From contig NZ_CP119988.1 of NCBI RefSeq assembly GCF_029338515.1, forward strand, positions 2,976,001 to 3,040,000: DNA of 64,000 bases. Direction: 5' to 3'. This document shows, piece by piece, positions 37,656 to 45,920 of the stretch. The position numbers were made by a program, and so were the translations under genes. Source of the DNA: Haloglomus litoreum (GTDB taxonomy: Archaea > Halobacteriota > Halobacteria > Halobacteriales > Haloarculaceae). The notes under the pieces are model-generated. The model ran no database searches, was not told the DNA's origin, and was given only the letters and a program-made list of their open reading frames with translations. Position 1 is the first letter of the stretch, and the number at the start of each line of letters is the position of its first letter.

Positions 37656-38286
37656 CGGACTCACCTCCCCCGTCGGTGCCGGCCGCACGGTCGGGCTCGG
37701 CCACGCGACGGCCCCCGTCGGCCGAGGGCTGTCCCGGTCGCTCCGGGACCGGCGTGGTTGGATCCCGCCCCTCGAAGATGACGAGCGCGTAGTCCTCCCA
37801 CGTCCGGATGGGCGCGAGGACCGAGGCGGGGTCCTGGCAGTTGATGGCGTGGACGTACAGCGTGTTGGTCTCTGCGTCGTGGTCCATGGTGAGCGTGCCG
37901 GGGGTGAGGGTGATGGAGTTCGCGATGGTGGTGATGGCGGCGTCGGACTCGACGCGGAGCGGCACCGCGACCACGTCCGGTTCGATGGGCATCGACGGCG
38001 CGAGGACGCGGTACGCCACGTCGACGTTGGCGGTGATGAGTTCGCGGATGAACACCGCGATGTAGCGAAGCGCGTACGGGACCGAGCGGAGCGACGGCCG
38101 GATGGCGAACTCGTCCTCGTAGAAGTTCCGGAGCGCGAACGCCGTCGGGAACCCGACGAGCAGCCCGATGATGAACTCCTCGGCGACCACCACGAGGCCA
38201 CCGGGCAGCGGCGTCGGGTCGACGCCGCGGACGAACAGGAACAGGACGGCCAGTCCGAGGCCGATGGCCGGCCAGCGGCGCGTCAT
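37645..38286 (-). CDS. mnhE: Mrp Na+/H+ antiporter subunit E
   Basis: 213 residues. An N-terminal helical part (AIGLGLAVLFLFVRGVDPTP; EEFIIGLLVGFPTAFALR) is followed by the soluble domain seen in MnhE: VPLRVESDAAITTIANSITL, TLTMDHDAETNTLYVHAI. A ~45-residue Gly/Asp/Arg-rich tail extends it beyond the usual ~165. The start overlaps the mnhD stop (ATGA). Confidence 0.9.
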   Translation of the reverse strand: MTRRWPAIGLGLAVLFLFVRGVDPTPLPGGLVVVAEEFIIGLLVGFPTAFALRNFYEDEFAIRPSLRSVPYALRYIAVFIRELITANVDVAYRVLAPSMPIEPDVVAVPLRVESDAAITTIANSITLTPGTLTMDHDAETNTLYVHAINCQDPASVLAPIRTWEDYALVIFEGRDPTTPVPERPGQPSADGGRRVAEPDRAAGTDGGGESDGE

Positions 38287-40115
38287 CGGCCATCACCCCG
38301 GAACTCGCGGAGTCGCTCGGCGATGTCGTGCGTGCCGTCGCTGCCGCCACCGTCGGCGAGCGCCTCCCCCGCGGTGGTGGGGTCGACGGCGTCGACGTAG
38401 GCGCCCGTATCGAGCGCGGCGTTCGCGGCGTCGGTCGCGGCCGTGTACAGCGGGTCGAAGCCGACGCCGAGCGCGACCAGCAGGACCGCCAGCGCCAGCG
38501 TGCACGCCACGAGGACGGGGTCGGCGATGCTCGCGGCGGCCGAGACATCGTCGCCGGGGCTGCCGTGAGCATCGTCGTGCGCCCCCTCGTGGCTGCTCGG
38601 CGCGTCCCCGTCCTCGTCACCCTCGGCGTGGCCCCCGTCGGCCACGGCGGCGCCGTCGTGGGTCCCGTCGACGCCCGCCAGCGCGGCGACCGCGGCCGCC
38701 CGGACCCGCGGCCCGGGCTCGCCCCAGAAGGCGCGGTTCCAGGCGCGGGTCACGTAGGCGATGGTCAGGACGGCGCCGGCGAGCGCGACCACCAGCGCGA
38801 GCGGTGCGCCCGCGCGGACCGCCGTGTCGAAGACGAGCAGCTTCGCGAAGAAGCCCGTCAGCGGCGGGATACCCACGAGCGAGAGCGCGCCGATGAGGAA
38901 GGCCCCCGAGAGGACCGGCGTCGCCTCCGTCAGGCCGCCCAGGTCGGACAGGCGGGTGGAGCCGACGGCGTCCTCGACGGCGCCGACCGCGAGGAACAGC
39001 AGCGCCTTCGCGAGCCCGTGGTTGACGCTGTAGACGAGCGCCGCCGCGATGCCCAGCGTCCGGACCGCGGGGTCGGTCGCGGTCGCGGCCACGGCCAGCG
39101 GGAGGACGATGAAGCCGATCTGGCCGATGGAGGAGTACGCCAGCAGGCCCTCCATGTCGGGCTGGTCGATGGCGCCGAGGCCGCCGAGGAACGTGCTCGC
39201 GGTCGCCATGAGGAAGAGGACGGGCCCGAAGAAGGCGAGGAAGCCCAGCTCGGGGCCGCCCTCGATGCCCGGGAGCGACACCGCGAGTGGCGCGGCCGCG
39301 AAGACGGTGAAGTAGAGCCGGAGGACCGCGTAGACGCCGACCTTCTTGACGACGCCCGCGAGCATCGCCGTCGTCGGGGCGGGCGCCGCCCGGTAGGCGT
39401 CGGGGACCCAGAACTGGAACGGGACGACGCCCGCCTTCAGGAGGAACACGACGAGCAGGACCGCGGAGAGGCCCAGCACGGGCGCCGGGTCGATGCCGTA
39501 GGCCGCGGGTTCGGCGAGGCGGCGGGCCATGTCGGCCATGTTGAGCGTGCCCGTCGTGGCGTAGAGACCGCCGATGGCCAGCAGCATGACCGCGCTCCCG
39601 AGCAGGTTGAGGACGGCGTACTGGAGCGCCGCGCGGGTGGCGTCGGCGTCGCTGTGGAACGCGACGAGCACGTACGAGGACATCAGCATCACCTCGAACC
39701 AGACGAACAGGTTGAAGATGTCGCCGGTGAGGAACGCGCCGGTGACGCCGACGACCATGAGGTGGTAGAGCGCGTGGTAGGAGAGGCGCTGGCCCTCGCG
39801 GTCGATGCTGCGGACGCCATAGACGGCAGCGACCAGCGAGACGACGGCGGCCAGTGCCAAGAGCAGCACCGAGAGCGGGTCGGCGACGAGCGTGATGCCG
39901 AACGGGGCGTCCCAGTTCGACACCTGGTAGACCAGCCGGTTGTCCGGGTCGAGCTGGACCGCGCGGAACAGTGCCGCGACACCGACGAGGTACGCGACGG
40001 CACCCGCGACCGAGACGCCGCGCTGGAGGCGAGGGCCCCACCGCGTCAGCAGCGCGAGGATGGCGGTCAGGAGTGCAGCTAGCAGCGGCGCGACGACGAC
40101 CTGCGGGGCCGACAT
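38283..40115 (-). CDS. mnhD: Mrp Na+/H+ antiporter subunit D (proton-conducting, NuoN-like)
   Basis: 610 residues, about 14 helices. The core NuoL/M/N-like channel shows WFEVMLMSSYVLVAF, SAVLLVVFLLKAGVVPFQFW (key Lys), the AYRAAPAPTTAMLAGVVKKV loop and NHGLAKALLFLAVGAV (Lys), with GIPPLTGFFAKL. It moves protons against Na+ with MnhA. Between the last two helices is a ~50-residue His/Asp/Glu-rich loop (five His) not usual in MnhD. Its start shares one base with the mnhC stop. Confidence 0.92.
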   Translation of the reverse strand: MSAPQVVVAPLLAALLTAILALLTRWGPRLQRGVSVAGAVAYLVGVAALFRAVQLDPDNRLVYQVSNWDAPFGITLVADPLSVLLLALAAVVSLVAAVYGVRSIDREGQRLSYHALYHLMVVGVTGAFLTGDIFNLFVWFEVMLMSSYVLVAFHSDADATRAALQYAVLNLLGSAVMLLAIGGLYATTGTLNMADMARRLAEPAAYGIDPAPVLGLSAVLLVVFLLKAGVVPFQFWVPDAYRAAPAPTTAMLAGVVKKVGVYAVLRLYFTVFAAAPLAVSLPGIEGGPELGFLAFFGPVLFLMATASTFLGGLGAIDQPDMEGLLAYSSIGQIGFIVLPLAVAATATDPAVRTLGIAAALVYSVNHGLAKALLFLAVGAVEDAVGSTRLSDLGGLTEATPVLSGAFLIGALSLVGIPPLTGFFAKLLVFDTAVRAGAPLALVVALAGAVLTIAYVTRAWNRAFWGEPGPRVRAAAVAALAGVDGTHDGAAVADGGHAEGDEDGDAPSSHEGAHDDAHGSPGDDVSAAASIADPVLVACTLALAVLLVALGVGFDPLYTAATDAANAALDTGAYVDAVDPTTAGEALADGGGSDGTHDIAERLREFRGDGR

Positions 40116-40588
40116 CAGGCCTCACCCCCCTGGTCGCGGGGTCCTTCGTCGGCGCCGTCGGACTCCGGTGCCCCGGCGTCCGCCCCGGGCTGGCCACCGT
40201 CCGCGCGGGCCTCCGCGGCGGCCGCCTCGGGGCCCTCGAACGGGTTCGACGCCAGCTCCGCGAGGTCGATGGTCCCGTTCTCCTCGTAGACGCGGAAGGT
40301 GAGGACCAGCGCGAACGCCGTGGTCCCGAAGCCGATGACGATGGCCGTCAGGACGAGCGCCTGGACCAGCGGGTCGGCGAACGGGGCCGAGGCGCCGCCG
40401 GTCAACACTGGCGCGTCGGCACCCTCCTGCCCCGTCAGGCCGAAGCCCATCGTGACGAGGTAGAGGTTGGCCGCCTGCGAGATGATGGCCACGCCCCAGA
40501 CGACACGGACCACGTCCCGCCGCAGGACGAGGAACGTCCCGAGCGCGAACAACAGTCCGAGCGCGAGCGCGAGGACGACTTCGACCAT
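40115..40588 (-). CDS. mnhC: Mrp Na+/H+ antiporter subunit C (NuoK-like)
   Basis: 157 residues. Three helices of the NuoK fold: LALALGLLFALGTFLVLRRD, VVWGVAIISQAANLYLV and QALVLTAIVIGFGTTAFALV, with the conserved DPLVQALVLTAIVIGFG signature. A hydrophilic tail of ~50 residues (EARADGGQPGADAGAPESD) lengthens it over the usual ~110. ATG 40588 overlaps the small-ORF stop (TGATG), so it is coupled. Confidence 0.92.
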   Translation of the reverse strand: MVEVVLALALGLLFALGTFLVLRRDVVRVVWGVAIISQAANLYLVTMGFGLTGQEGADAPVLTGGASAPFADPLVQALVLTAIVIGFGTTAFALVLTFRVYEENGTIDLAELASNPFEGPEAAAAEARADGGQPGADAGAPESDGADEGPRDQGGEA

Positions 40589-40704
40589 CAGGCCGTCACC
40601 TCCGGAAGTTCGTCGTAGATGCCGGACATTAGTGTATCATCCGGGCGTTTGACCGTGTATTCGCCATCTTCGGTCGAGAGCCGTGGAATTTCGATGTTCA
40701 TCAT
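40588..40704 (-). CDS. 38-residue ORF fitted between mnhB and mnhC
   Basis: A 38-residue frame, MMNIEIPRLSTEDGEYTV plus KRPDDTLMSGIYDELPEVTA, no helix, acidic. Its start overlaps the mnhB stop (ATGA) and its stop overlaps the mnhC start (TGATG), so it fills the gap exactly, in the operon frame logic. It is visibly more A/T-rich than the genes on either side. It is not a known Mrp subunit. The perfect coupling on both sides argues that it is translated, but without homologues I cannot prove it; it could be a recent insertion that kept coupling. Confidence 0.5.
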   Translation of the reverse strand: MMNIEIPRLSTEDGEYTVKRPDDTLMSGIYDELPEVTA

Positions 40705-41171
40705 TCCTTGCCCACCACCGCGAGGATCGTCAGGAGCGAGCCGACGACGACGAAGTACACCCCGAGGTCGAACGCGAGCGCGGAGGCGTACTCCAGCGTG
40801 CCGTACAGCGGGACGCCCTCGAGGAAGACGACCGCCTGCGTGAGGAACGGCACCTCGAAGAGCATCGCGGCCACGCCCGAGCCGAACGCGAGCGCCAGCC
40901 CCGCGGCGAACGTCCGCTCGTAGGATTCGGTCGGCCCCGACAGCAGCCCGTAGCCCTCCGAGCGGGTGACGAGGTCGCGCCGGACCGTATCGATGCCGTA
41001 GATGACGTACATCAGGACGAACGCCGTCGCCGTGAGGACGCCCGCGATGAAGCCCCCGCCCGGCAGGTTGTGCCCCTGGATGAGGAGCGCGACCGCCGTG
41101 ACGGCGATGATGGGGACCACGGTGCGGGTGACCGTCTTCGCGATGACCGTCGGCTCGCGGTCCTGGGTCAT
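40701..41171 (-). CDS. mnhB: Mrp Na+/H+ antiporter subunit B
   Basis: 156 residues, four helices. Signature segments: TVTRTVVPIIAVTAVALLIQ, GHNLPGGGFIAGVLTATAFV (the GHxxPGGGFxxG motif), FAAGLALAFGSGVAAMLF, and LAFDLGVYFVVVGSLLTILA. It overlaps mnhA (ATGA) upstream and the 38-residue ORF downstream. Confidence 0.94.
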   Translation of the reverse strand: MTQDREPTVIAKTVTRTVVPIIAVTAVALLIQGHNLPGGGFIAGVLTATAFVLMYVIYGIDTVRRDLVTRSEGYGLLSGPTESYERTFAAGLALAFGSGVAAMLFEVPFLTQAVVFLEGVPLYGTLEYASALAFDLGVYFVVVGSLLTILAVVGKE

Positions 41172-43711
41172 CGGGCCTCACCCCCCTCGGTCGTGTCCAC
41201 GTCGGTAGCGCCGCCGTCGGTCACGGGCGACTCCTCGGGCCCGCGCCCGCCAGGCTCCGTGACCTCCGGGTCGTCGCCGCCCACGTCCGTCCGGGCCCGC
41301 ATCCCGATGAGCGTCAGCACCGAGAGGGCGGCCATCGCGACGACGGAGATCTCCCCGAGCGTGTCGAACGCCCGGAAGTCGACGAGGATGACGTTCACGA
41401 CGTTGCTGCCGCCGCCGTAGTCGCCGAATATCGGCCCGTGTTCGGCCGGCACGCCCGCGCGGGCGAGGAAGAACTCGAAGATGGGGCCGTCGGGCTGGGC
41501 GCTCGTCGCGACGATGACCGTCGCGAAGACCGTGAAGCCGACGAGCGAGGCCAGCGCCGCGTCCGCGACGGTCCGGGCGCGAGAGCGAATCTCGCCGTAG
41601 TAGGCGGGGAGCTTGTCCAGCACGAGCAGGAAGATGACCAGCACGAGGGTCTCGATGACGAGCTGGGTCAGTGCCAGGTCGGGTGCGTGCGCGAGGATGT
41701 AGACGATGGCGACCATGAACCCGAGGATAGAGAGCGTGAGGACGCCGGCGATGTGCGAGGGCGCCCGGGCGACGGCCATCGCGCCCACGACCGCCACGCC
41801 GAGTACGAGCACGAGCGGAACGGGCGGGACGGCGCCGACGCCCTCGACGGTCACCGCACCGGCGGCCGCGTACCCCGCGAGCGCGAGGACCGAGGTGCCG
41901 AGCATGAACGGTGCGGCGTAGGTGCGGAAGGCCCCGCCGTGGACGGCGATGGCGAGCCGGCGAGAGACGCCGTTCGCACCCTCCGTGAGGCCGTCGTAGT
42001 ACCAGTTCGGGCTGGTGTAGTCGACCGCCCGGGCGCGACGGACGCCAGCGTGGAGCCGGTCGTAGAACGGGTAGGCGACCCCGCCCAGCGCGATGGTCAG
42101 CAGGCTCATCCCGAGGTACGGCGTGAAGCTGAACAGCTTCGGGATGGAGAGCTTCAGCGAGTGGGCCTCGACGCCGACCGGAACGCTCGCCTCGAACGCC
42201 GACTGGACGATGGCGTCGATGGCGACCTGCGGGACGACGCCCGCGACGATGGCGATGGCCGCCAGCAGCGCGGGCGGCGCGAGCATCGAGAGCGGCGGCC
42301 GGTGGACGTCCACGTCGGCCAGCGCGTCGGGTCGGTCCCCGAAGAACAGCGAGAGGAACTTCAGCGAGTAGAGGAACGTGAACACGCTGCCGAAGACGGC
42401 GATGGCTGGGTAGAGCCAGAACCAGCCTCCCTGTGCCTTGGCGACGTAGTAGGTCGTCTCGAACAGCAACTCCTTCGACCAGAAACCGTTGAACGGCGGC
42501 ACCCCGGCCATCCCGAGCGCGGCGATGCCCGTGATGCCCGCGACGATGGGGAGGTCCTTCCGCAGCCCGCCGAGCTCGGATATCTTCCGCGTGTGCGCCT
42601 CGTGGGCGATGATGCCCGCGACGAGGAACAGGGTCGCCTTGAAGACGGCGTGGTTGAAGATGTGGAACGCGCCCGTCTCCGCGCCGAGTTCGAGCGCCTC
42701 CGAGCCGGCCAGCCCGTAGCCCGCGATGATGAGGCCCAGGTGCGACGCGGTGGAGTACGCGAGCAACTCCTTGATGTCGGTCGCGCCGACCGCGAGGATG
42801 GCGGTGATGGTCATCGAGACGAGCCCGAGCGTCGCGAGCAGGAGCGTCCACTCCGGAATCGCGGGCAGGTCCGGGACGAACAGCGGCCGGAAGCGCCCCA
42901 CCAGGTAGACCCCCGCCTTGACCATCGTCGCGCTGTGGAGGAACGCCGAAACCGGCGTGGGCGCCTCCATCGCGTTCGGCAGCCAGACGTGGAACGGCGC
43001 CTGTGCGGATTTGGTCACCGCGCCCACGGCCACGAGCGCGAGCGCGGGCACGAACAGGCTCGACGCGCGCAGCGCCTCCCGTACCGCGTCGCCGTTGGCG
43101 ATGAGCGAGTTCTCGGTGCCGATGAGGACGAACGTCCGGCCCGCGGCGGTATCGCCGGAGGCGAACGCGAGGACGAGGAAGCCCGCGAGCATGAACAGGC
43201 CGCCCGCGACCGTGATGAGCATCGATTTCCGGGCGGCGTACTGGGAGGCGGCCTCGCGCTGGTGATGCCCGATGAGGAGGAACGAGGTGACCGATGTGAG
43301 CTCCCAGAAGACGAAGAGGGCGAGGAGGTCGGCGGCGAACGCGACGCCGAGCATCGACCCCATGAACGCCAGCAGCGTGGCGTAGTACTTGACGTGGCCG
43401 TGCTCGTGGGCCATGTAGCCGTAGGAGTAGGTGAAGACGAGGACGCCGACGCCGCTCGCGAGGAAGCCGATCAGCAGCGCGAGCCCGTCGACGTACAGCG
43501 TGAGGGTGACGCCCAGCGAGGGGATCCACGGCAGCTGGACCGCGCCCTCGGCGCCGTACTGCGTCGCGAGGAGGCCGAAACTGGCCGCCGCGACGAGGGC
43601 CGCGAAGAAGGCGACCCGCTGGCCGAGGACGCGGAACAGCGCCGGGACCAGCAGGGCCGCGACGAACGGCAGGGCGAGCGCGGCCACGAGGACGCCGGCG
43701 TCCGGTTGCAC
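41168..43711 (-). CDS. mnhA: Mrp Na+/H+ antiporter subunit A
   Basis: 847 residues starting at GTG 43711. The NuoL-like region includes FWELTSVTSFLLIG, KSAQAPFHVWLPNAMEAPTP (Lys and Pro) and NHAVFKATLFLVAGIIAHEA. The C-terminal third adds the MbhD/DUF4040 part (HAPDLALTQLVIETLVLVIF) and the MbhE-like segment (NVVNVILVDFRAFDTLGE), then a hydrophilic tail. This is the main Na+/H+ exchange subunit with MnhD. The start is set by the TATA box at 43740 and the lack of an ATG; the TTG further upstream is less likely. Confidence 0.93.
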   Translation of the reverse strand: MQPDAGVLVAALALPFVAALLVPALFRVLGQRVAFFAALVAAASFGLLATQYGAEGAVQLPWIPSLGVTLTLYVDGLALLIGFLASGVGVLVFTYSYGYMAHEHGHVKYYATLLAFMGSMLGVAFAADLLALFVFWELTSVTSFLLIGHHQREAASQYAARKSMLITVAGGLFMLAGFLVLAFASGDTAAGRTFVLIGTENSLIANGDAVREALRASSLFVPALALVAVGAVTKSAQAPFHVWLPNAMEAPTPVSAFLHSATMVKAGVYLVGRFRPLFVPDLPAIPEWTLLLATLGLVSMTITAILAVGATDIKELLAYSTASHLGLIIAGYGLAGSEALELGAETGAFHIFNHAVFKATLFLVAGIIAHEAHTRKISELGGLRKDLPIVAGITGIAALGMAGVPPFNGFWSKELLFETTYYVAKAQGGWFWLYPAIAVFGSVFTFLYSLKFLSLFFGDRPDALADVDVHRPPLSMLAPPALLAAIAIVAGVVPQVAIDAIVQSAFEASVPVGVEAHSLKLSIPKLFSFTPYLGMSLLTIALGGVAYPFYDRLHAGVRRARAVDYTSPNWYYDGLTEGANGVSRRLAIAVHGGAFRTYAAPFMLGTSVLALAGYAAAGAVTVEGVGAVPPVPLVLVLGVAVVGAMAVARAPSHIAGVLTLSILGFMVAIVYILAHAPDLALTQLVIETLVLVIFLLVLDKLPAYYGEIRSRARTVADAALASLVGFTVFATVIVATSAQPDGPIFEFFLARAGVPAEHGPIFGDYGGGSNVVNVILVDFRAFDTLGEISVVAMAALSVLTLIGMRARTDVGGDDPEVTEPGGRGPEESPVTDGGATDVDTTEGGEAR

Positions 43712-44657: not shown

Positions 44658-45920
<1,263 letters not shown>

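Follow-up and report, generated by a model that had tools for sequence, protein, structure and literature searches.

The window analysed here is a stretch of 64,000 nucleotides from contig NZ_CP119988.1 of the haloarchaeon Haloglomus litoreum (positions 2,976,001 to 3,040,000), and coordinates refer to the window unless the genome is named. Its minus strand carries an Mrp antiporter operon in the order mnhA-mnhB-ORF-mnhC-mnhD-mnhE; the Pfam domains found around the ORF are MnhB, Oxidored_q2 (MnhC), MNHE and antiporter domains. The upstream gene mnhA (41168–43711, assigned by Pfam, with an uncertain start at 43711 or 43738) is joined by an ATGA overlap to mnhB (40701–41171, 156 aa, Pfam MnhB), the end of which reads GGC AAG GAA TGA. 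The end of mnhC (40115–40588, 157 aa, Pfam Oxidored_q2) is overlapped by mnhD (38283–40115, assigned by Pfam). mnhB identity was 84–96% within the genus by a genome search, and 83% in H. irregulare. Just upstream of the operon, the plus strand contains a 420-aa ORF (44658–45920) that has four cysteines of the CxxC type close to the C-terminus (CSKCGHQ...CTECGYEADGDYNAAKNIG) and that we take to resemble an IS605/IS200-type TnpB transposon protein.

mnhB and mnhC are separated by an insert of 115 nt, which is spanned by a minus-strand ORF of 38 codons (40588–40704) with the predicted peptide MMNIEIPRLSTEDGEYTVKRPDDTLMSGIYDELPEVTA. The first ATG (40704–40702) shares 4 nt with the mnhB stop codon (ATGA). 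A second ATG in the same frame (40701–40699) forms a TGATG with that stop codon and would shorten the peptide by one codon. At the other end, the ORF stops at TGA 40590–40588, the last A of which also belongs to the mnhC ATG (40588–40586), giving a TGATG with a 1-nt overlap. Both ends therefore carry overlaps of the lengths (4 or 1 nt) that define ORFs coupled by termination-reinitiation. Inside the ORF, 7 nt ahead of the mnhC ATG, lies a Shine-Dalgarno (SD)-like motif, GGAGGTGA (40596–40603, minus strand), which doubles as the coding sequence for most of the peptide tail ..EVTA. No listed ORF of this kind in the window genome has a longer exact match to the anti-SD complement than its 8 nt. 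A putative second SD-like stretch, GGTGGTGGGC (40710–40719, minus strand), is located within mnhB ahead of the first ATG, and its GGTGGTGGG portion is also found in many haloarchaea at the end of mnhB. The ORF has a G+C content of 0.53, compared with 0.70 in both mnhB and mnhC. The coordinates, the double coupling and the A/T-richness relative to the neighbours described in an earlier sequence-only reading are all borne out by sequence and translation, as is the placement of the ORF outside the classical seven-subunit set.

All five Haloglomus species examined have a doubly coupled ORF at the same position; it is exactly 38 codons long in four of them and 43 in the other. This constancy, together with the position between two subunit genes, would fit a small protein acting as accessory subunit or modulator of the antiporter, which the sequence-only reading had offered as an uncharacterised micro-subunit, but the properties of the peptide argue against it. 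Replacement divergence proceeds about as fast as silent divergence in three close Haloglomus pairs (dN/dS of 0.65/0.70, 0.80/0.78 and 0.68/1.21, ratios of about 0.6 to 1.0; codon comparisons with H. irregulare were saturated, and one such pair gave no dN value). The same pairs give 0.02/0.29, 0.04/0.37 and 0.03/0.32 for mnhB, and the flanking genes stand near 0.1. Across the five species the net charge of the peptide varies from −6 to +6 (−6, +2, −3, +6 and −2), and no membrane or hydrophobic segment was found, the best 17-residue hydropathy being −0.18 in the window and at most 0.04 overall. The window peptide matched only itself at E below 0.3 in searches of 39 genomes and had no family match in Pfam or NCBIfam. 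The insert of H. irregulare aligns with those of the other Haloglomus species at near-random identity (33–40 of 116). The constant length of 38 codons was dropped as an argument because of this near-random identity and because unrelated ORFs at the same junction in other archaea range from 14 to 72 codons. In sequence, hydropathy and conservation the ORF has no link to any Mrp/Mnh subunit, although it shares their operon; neither a conserved protein sequence nor membrane segments are present, and an accessory subunit is quite unlikely.

The part of the peptide nearest to mnhC is more alike among close relatives. Peptide tails read ..ELPEVTA, ..EPTEVTA and ..ESTGVTA, and the last third is still common to the three A/T-rich Haloglomus ORFs, partly because the SD motif sits there; weak peptide constraint may exist in this segment. 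A short ORF directly ahead of mnhC, whose tail is similar among close relatives, could be read as a regulatory leader peptide, the sequence of which stalls ribosomes and thereby controls mnhC. We consider this highly unlikely. The SD motif itself encodes the tail, which is absent from H. irregulare, and there is no Rfam match to the ORF stretch. The RNA of the five Haloglomus stretches does not fold better than shuffled sequences (z from −0.26 to 1.43), so that an RNA element at the ORF is unlikely. By dN/dS, Rfam and folding, neither a conserved peptide nor a signal-sensing RNA structure was found. The alternative offered by the sequence-only reading, a leader of the antiporter, may hold only if the word is taken to mean an ORF that brings ribosomes to mnhC. 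An origin from a repeat family was likewise rejected: neither the genome itself nor the related ones (39 genomes) contain a second copy of the 117 nt or a second long DNA match, the other matches being short and weak, and the best non-self DNA match (E 0.001) covers the last 33 nt at the same locus of a congener.

To place the ORF in a wider context, mnhB-mnhC junctions were collected from searches of relatives, genus, family and order, from contigs of named genomes and from fetched stretches; in one search 173 of 392 genomes matched at E 1e-30, and loci were taken for most of the best matches listed. After removal of 10 of the 227 loci, 217 with both genes readable yielded 186 distinct junctions, from which nine bacterial ones were set aside. 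The 177 distinct archaeal junctions comprise 133 direct ATGA overlaps, 24 in-frame inserts, 19 out-of-frame inserts bridged by an ORF (termed relays below), one junction without an overlapping start and no other type. The in-frame inserts appear as N-terminal extensions of MnhC of up to about 40 residues. Direct mnhB-mnhC overlaps in relatives, which the sequence-only reading would have counted, together with absent ribosome footprints, against its proposal, are common (133 of 177), yet every out-of-frame spacer contains a coupled ORF, which that reading did not foresee. The upstream junction behaves differently: an overlapping mnhB start follows mnhA in all 163 readable junctions (14 further loci were too short), indicating that inserts are a trait of mnhB-mnhC and not of every operon junction.

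Each of the 19 out-of-frame inserts can be read without interruption from the mnhB stop codon onwards, the frame, of 14–72 codons, ending in a stop codon that overlaps the mnhC start. Their lengths are all congruent to 2 modulo 3, the only phase that permits both overlaps. Taking both classes together, the 43 inserts of at least 5 nt fall into phase 0 (24) or phase 2 (19), and phase 1 does not occur. As a yardstick, same-strand neighbour gaps of 20–300 nt in 864 kb of the window genome, with the second copy of a duplicated stretch excluded, show phases 0, 1 and 2 in 80, 100 and 110 of 290 pairs, phase 1 accounting for about one third. Compared with this yardstick, Fisher's test gives p = 1.1e-7 for all inserts and 1.1e-5 for the out-of-frame inserts, the junctions being treated as independent though related by descent. 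The relay state forms 10 separate groups on a tree of MnhB and MnhC (a quick, single-operon tree, so that horizontal transfer could alter the count); with equal odds of phases 1 and 2, this outcome in 10 groups has a probability of 0.5^10, about 0.001, before later length changes are counted. Such changes have occurred in two groups, where gaps of 115, 130 and 55 nt and of 37, 46, 64, 82 and 139 nt, respectively, all keep the phase. The peptides of different groups look unrelated, which also speaks against an accessory subunit.

How far could a decaying intergenic spacer mimic this pattern? Taken alone, the openness of the window ORF is weak evidence, its frame remaining open in 31% of shuffles of its own interior, and the spacer evolves free of peptide constraint, as a chance open frame would. 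Openness is weak evidence for the other inserts as well, because shuffles of these GC-rich sequences remain open in 17–100% of draws, and it is the phase rule that carries the argument. Chance does not account for the phase and the stop position shared by all 19 relay junctions from 10 groups, an arrangement evidently kept by selection across relatives and replicated in nine leuC-leuD junctions (below). The window ORF, obeying the same rule as all five Haloglomus species and all 19 archaeal out-of-frame spacers, goes beyond chance, and a fortuitous frame is extremely unlikely. A further possibility is that translation of the spacer serves only to shield the mRNA against polarity or decay, with the mnhC overlap as a secondary trait. 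Inserts of at least 5 nt are indeed open from the mnhB stop codon in both classes, as shielding would predict; however, frames in phase 1 running past the mnhC start, or frames that stop shortly ahead of it, would serve this purpose too, and yet every one of the 19 stops overlaps the start codon. Protection of the mRNA as the sole function is therefore very unlikely.

The same architecture was found at a second junction. A doubly coupled ORF of 55 codons occupies a hairpin-rich spacer at window genome positions 3358314–3358481, between genes that are presumably leuC and leuD, names we assign from sequence resemblance; similar-looking spacers are present in several genera. A second doubly coupled ORF, of 28 codons with a GGGGGTGG motif, precedes leuC (3356813–3356899), and from these sequences the leu operon seems to hold two relays. 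LeuD was searched in the family and order, and 77 loci were read (40 of them fetched, one without LeuD) in a sample that leans towards close relatives of the query. The 76 distinct leuC-leuD junctions comprise 61 direct junctions, five in-frame extensions, nine relays and one unclassed case. Each of the nine relays has an open frame with coupling at both ends; they look partly homologous and hairpin-rich by eye, and hence represent fewer than nine independent events.

A scan of 864 kb of the window genome with a home-made gene caller revealed a modest genome-wide excess of relays, which follow 22 of 69 coupled starts compared with 71 of 638 control starts (these counts still include both copies of a duplicated 42-kb stretch and one ORF that was counted twice). 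Once the second copy was removed, 17 relays remained in 281 gaps, six of them with an SD of at least 5 nt, and nine gaps lack a relay despite a strong SD. Many single relays of the scan are uncertain, since the control rate predicts that about 7 of 64 coupled starts lead to a relay by chance. One doubly coupled ORF of 37 aa (window genome 3232696–3232809) contains a hydrophobic stretch (MSAVRTGPGVKFFVLSHLVVGLLGIVLGGVLVAGGGL) and, in contrast to the mnh relay, may encode a genuine small membrane protein. The duplicated stretch is an exact tandem duplication of about 42.4 kb at about 3.23–3.32 Mb of the window genome, outside the window; at an offset of 42382, samples of 500 nt match with identity 1.0 across most of the first copy. 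The gene beside it presumably encodes an integrase, judged by resemblance, and the duplication reflects either an element integrated in tandem or an artefact of assembly.

These observations point to the ORF being a translational relay that keeps mnhC tied to mnhB, in which the ORF is predicted to be translated, selection acts on the frame and the peptide is incidental; we assign this reading a probability of about 0.8. Ribosomes ending mnhB would reinitiate at the overlapping relay ATG, translate the 115-nt spacer and terminate within the mnhC start codon. A second reinitiation, aided by the GGAGGTGA motif, would then take place at mnhC. The translation of mnhC would thereby be linked to that of mnhB over an insertion that otherwise breaks termination-reinitiation. 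The selected features would be the open frame, the length congruent to 2 modulo 3, both overlaps and the SD at the end, and not the peptide. In Haloferax volcanii, reinitiation is nearly lost when a gap of about 20 nt intervenes, and a collapse is seen in E. coli as well, according to the accessible text of Huber et al. (2023, PMC10666635); coupling was strict in all nine overlapping pairs tested in H. volcanii, according to that of Huber et al. (2019, PMC6728339). Because reinitiation collapses across such gaps, a gap of 115 nt should uncouple mnhC, and the bridging frame would restore contact. Expression of mnhC would depend on the ORF, and the likely benefit is a balanced supply of MnhB and MnhC.

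A broader proposal, to which we give somewhat less than even odds, is that haloarchaea possess a class of translated but content-free relay ORFs in which only the phase, the openness and the overlaps are under selection, and which may allow foreign or expanding DNA to settle in coupled subunit pairs (mnhB-mnhC, leuC-leuD and others); hairpin-rich inserts with such frames could be an archaeal counterpart of the mycobacterial interspersed repetitive units (MIRUs). The absence of one of the three insert phases from the sample provides natural evolutionary evidence for selection on translational coupling itself in archaeal operons. It also serves as a warning to small-protein surveys that an ORF may be conserved, and probably translated, yet have no useful protein product. 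The mnhB-mnhC and leuC-leuD junctions offer ready test objects for the distance that post-termination ribosomes can travel.

A literature search on the Mrp antiporter and haloarchaea showed nothing on the mnhB-mnhC junction among the five papers listed. Across the titles and abstracts listed, in a literature with few subscription papers, no report of coupled bridging, relay or mini-ORFs was found, nor, within the same literature and the portions of it available, a description of sequence-free bridges recurring at one junction. The closest known systems each share part of the architecture. Termination-reinitiation at ATGA and TGATG overlaps (PMC6728339, PMC10666635) resembles the present case, as far as the accessible text goes, in overlap types, organism group, the SD before the downstream start and the involvement of subunits of heteromeric complexes. 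There, two functional genes overlap, whereas here an ORF with no evident protein function stands between them and is coupled at both ends; the accessible portions of the two papers do not mention bridging ORFs. In MIRUs (Supply et al., 1997, as summarized in the available part of the review PMC12548453), a sequence inserted at a coupled gene start contains a short ORF that keeps the coupling (−4 nt), and the review treats them as a possible natural case of ribosome delivery by short ORFs. The window ORF is likewise coupled to its flanking genes at the site of insertion; MIRUs as described there are a repeated family, whereas the 117 nt of the window have no second copy and the relay groups look unrelated. 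The short upstream ORFs that 'deliver' a ribosome in the same part of that review (PMC12548453) are like the relay in serving the initiation of the next gene and not a protein. Such an upstream ORF is coupled to one downstream gene, whereas the relay would itself be fed by the upstream gene and pass the ribosomes on.
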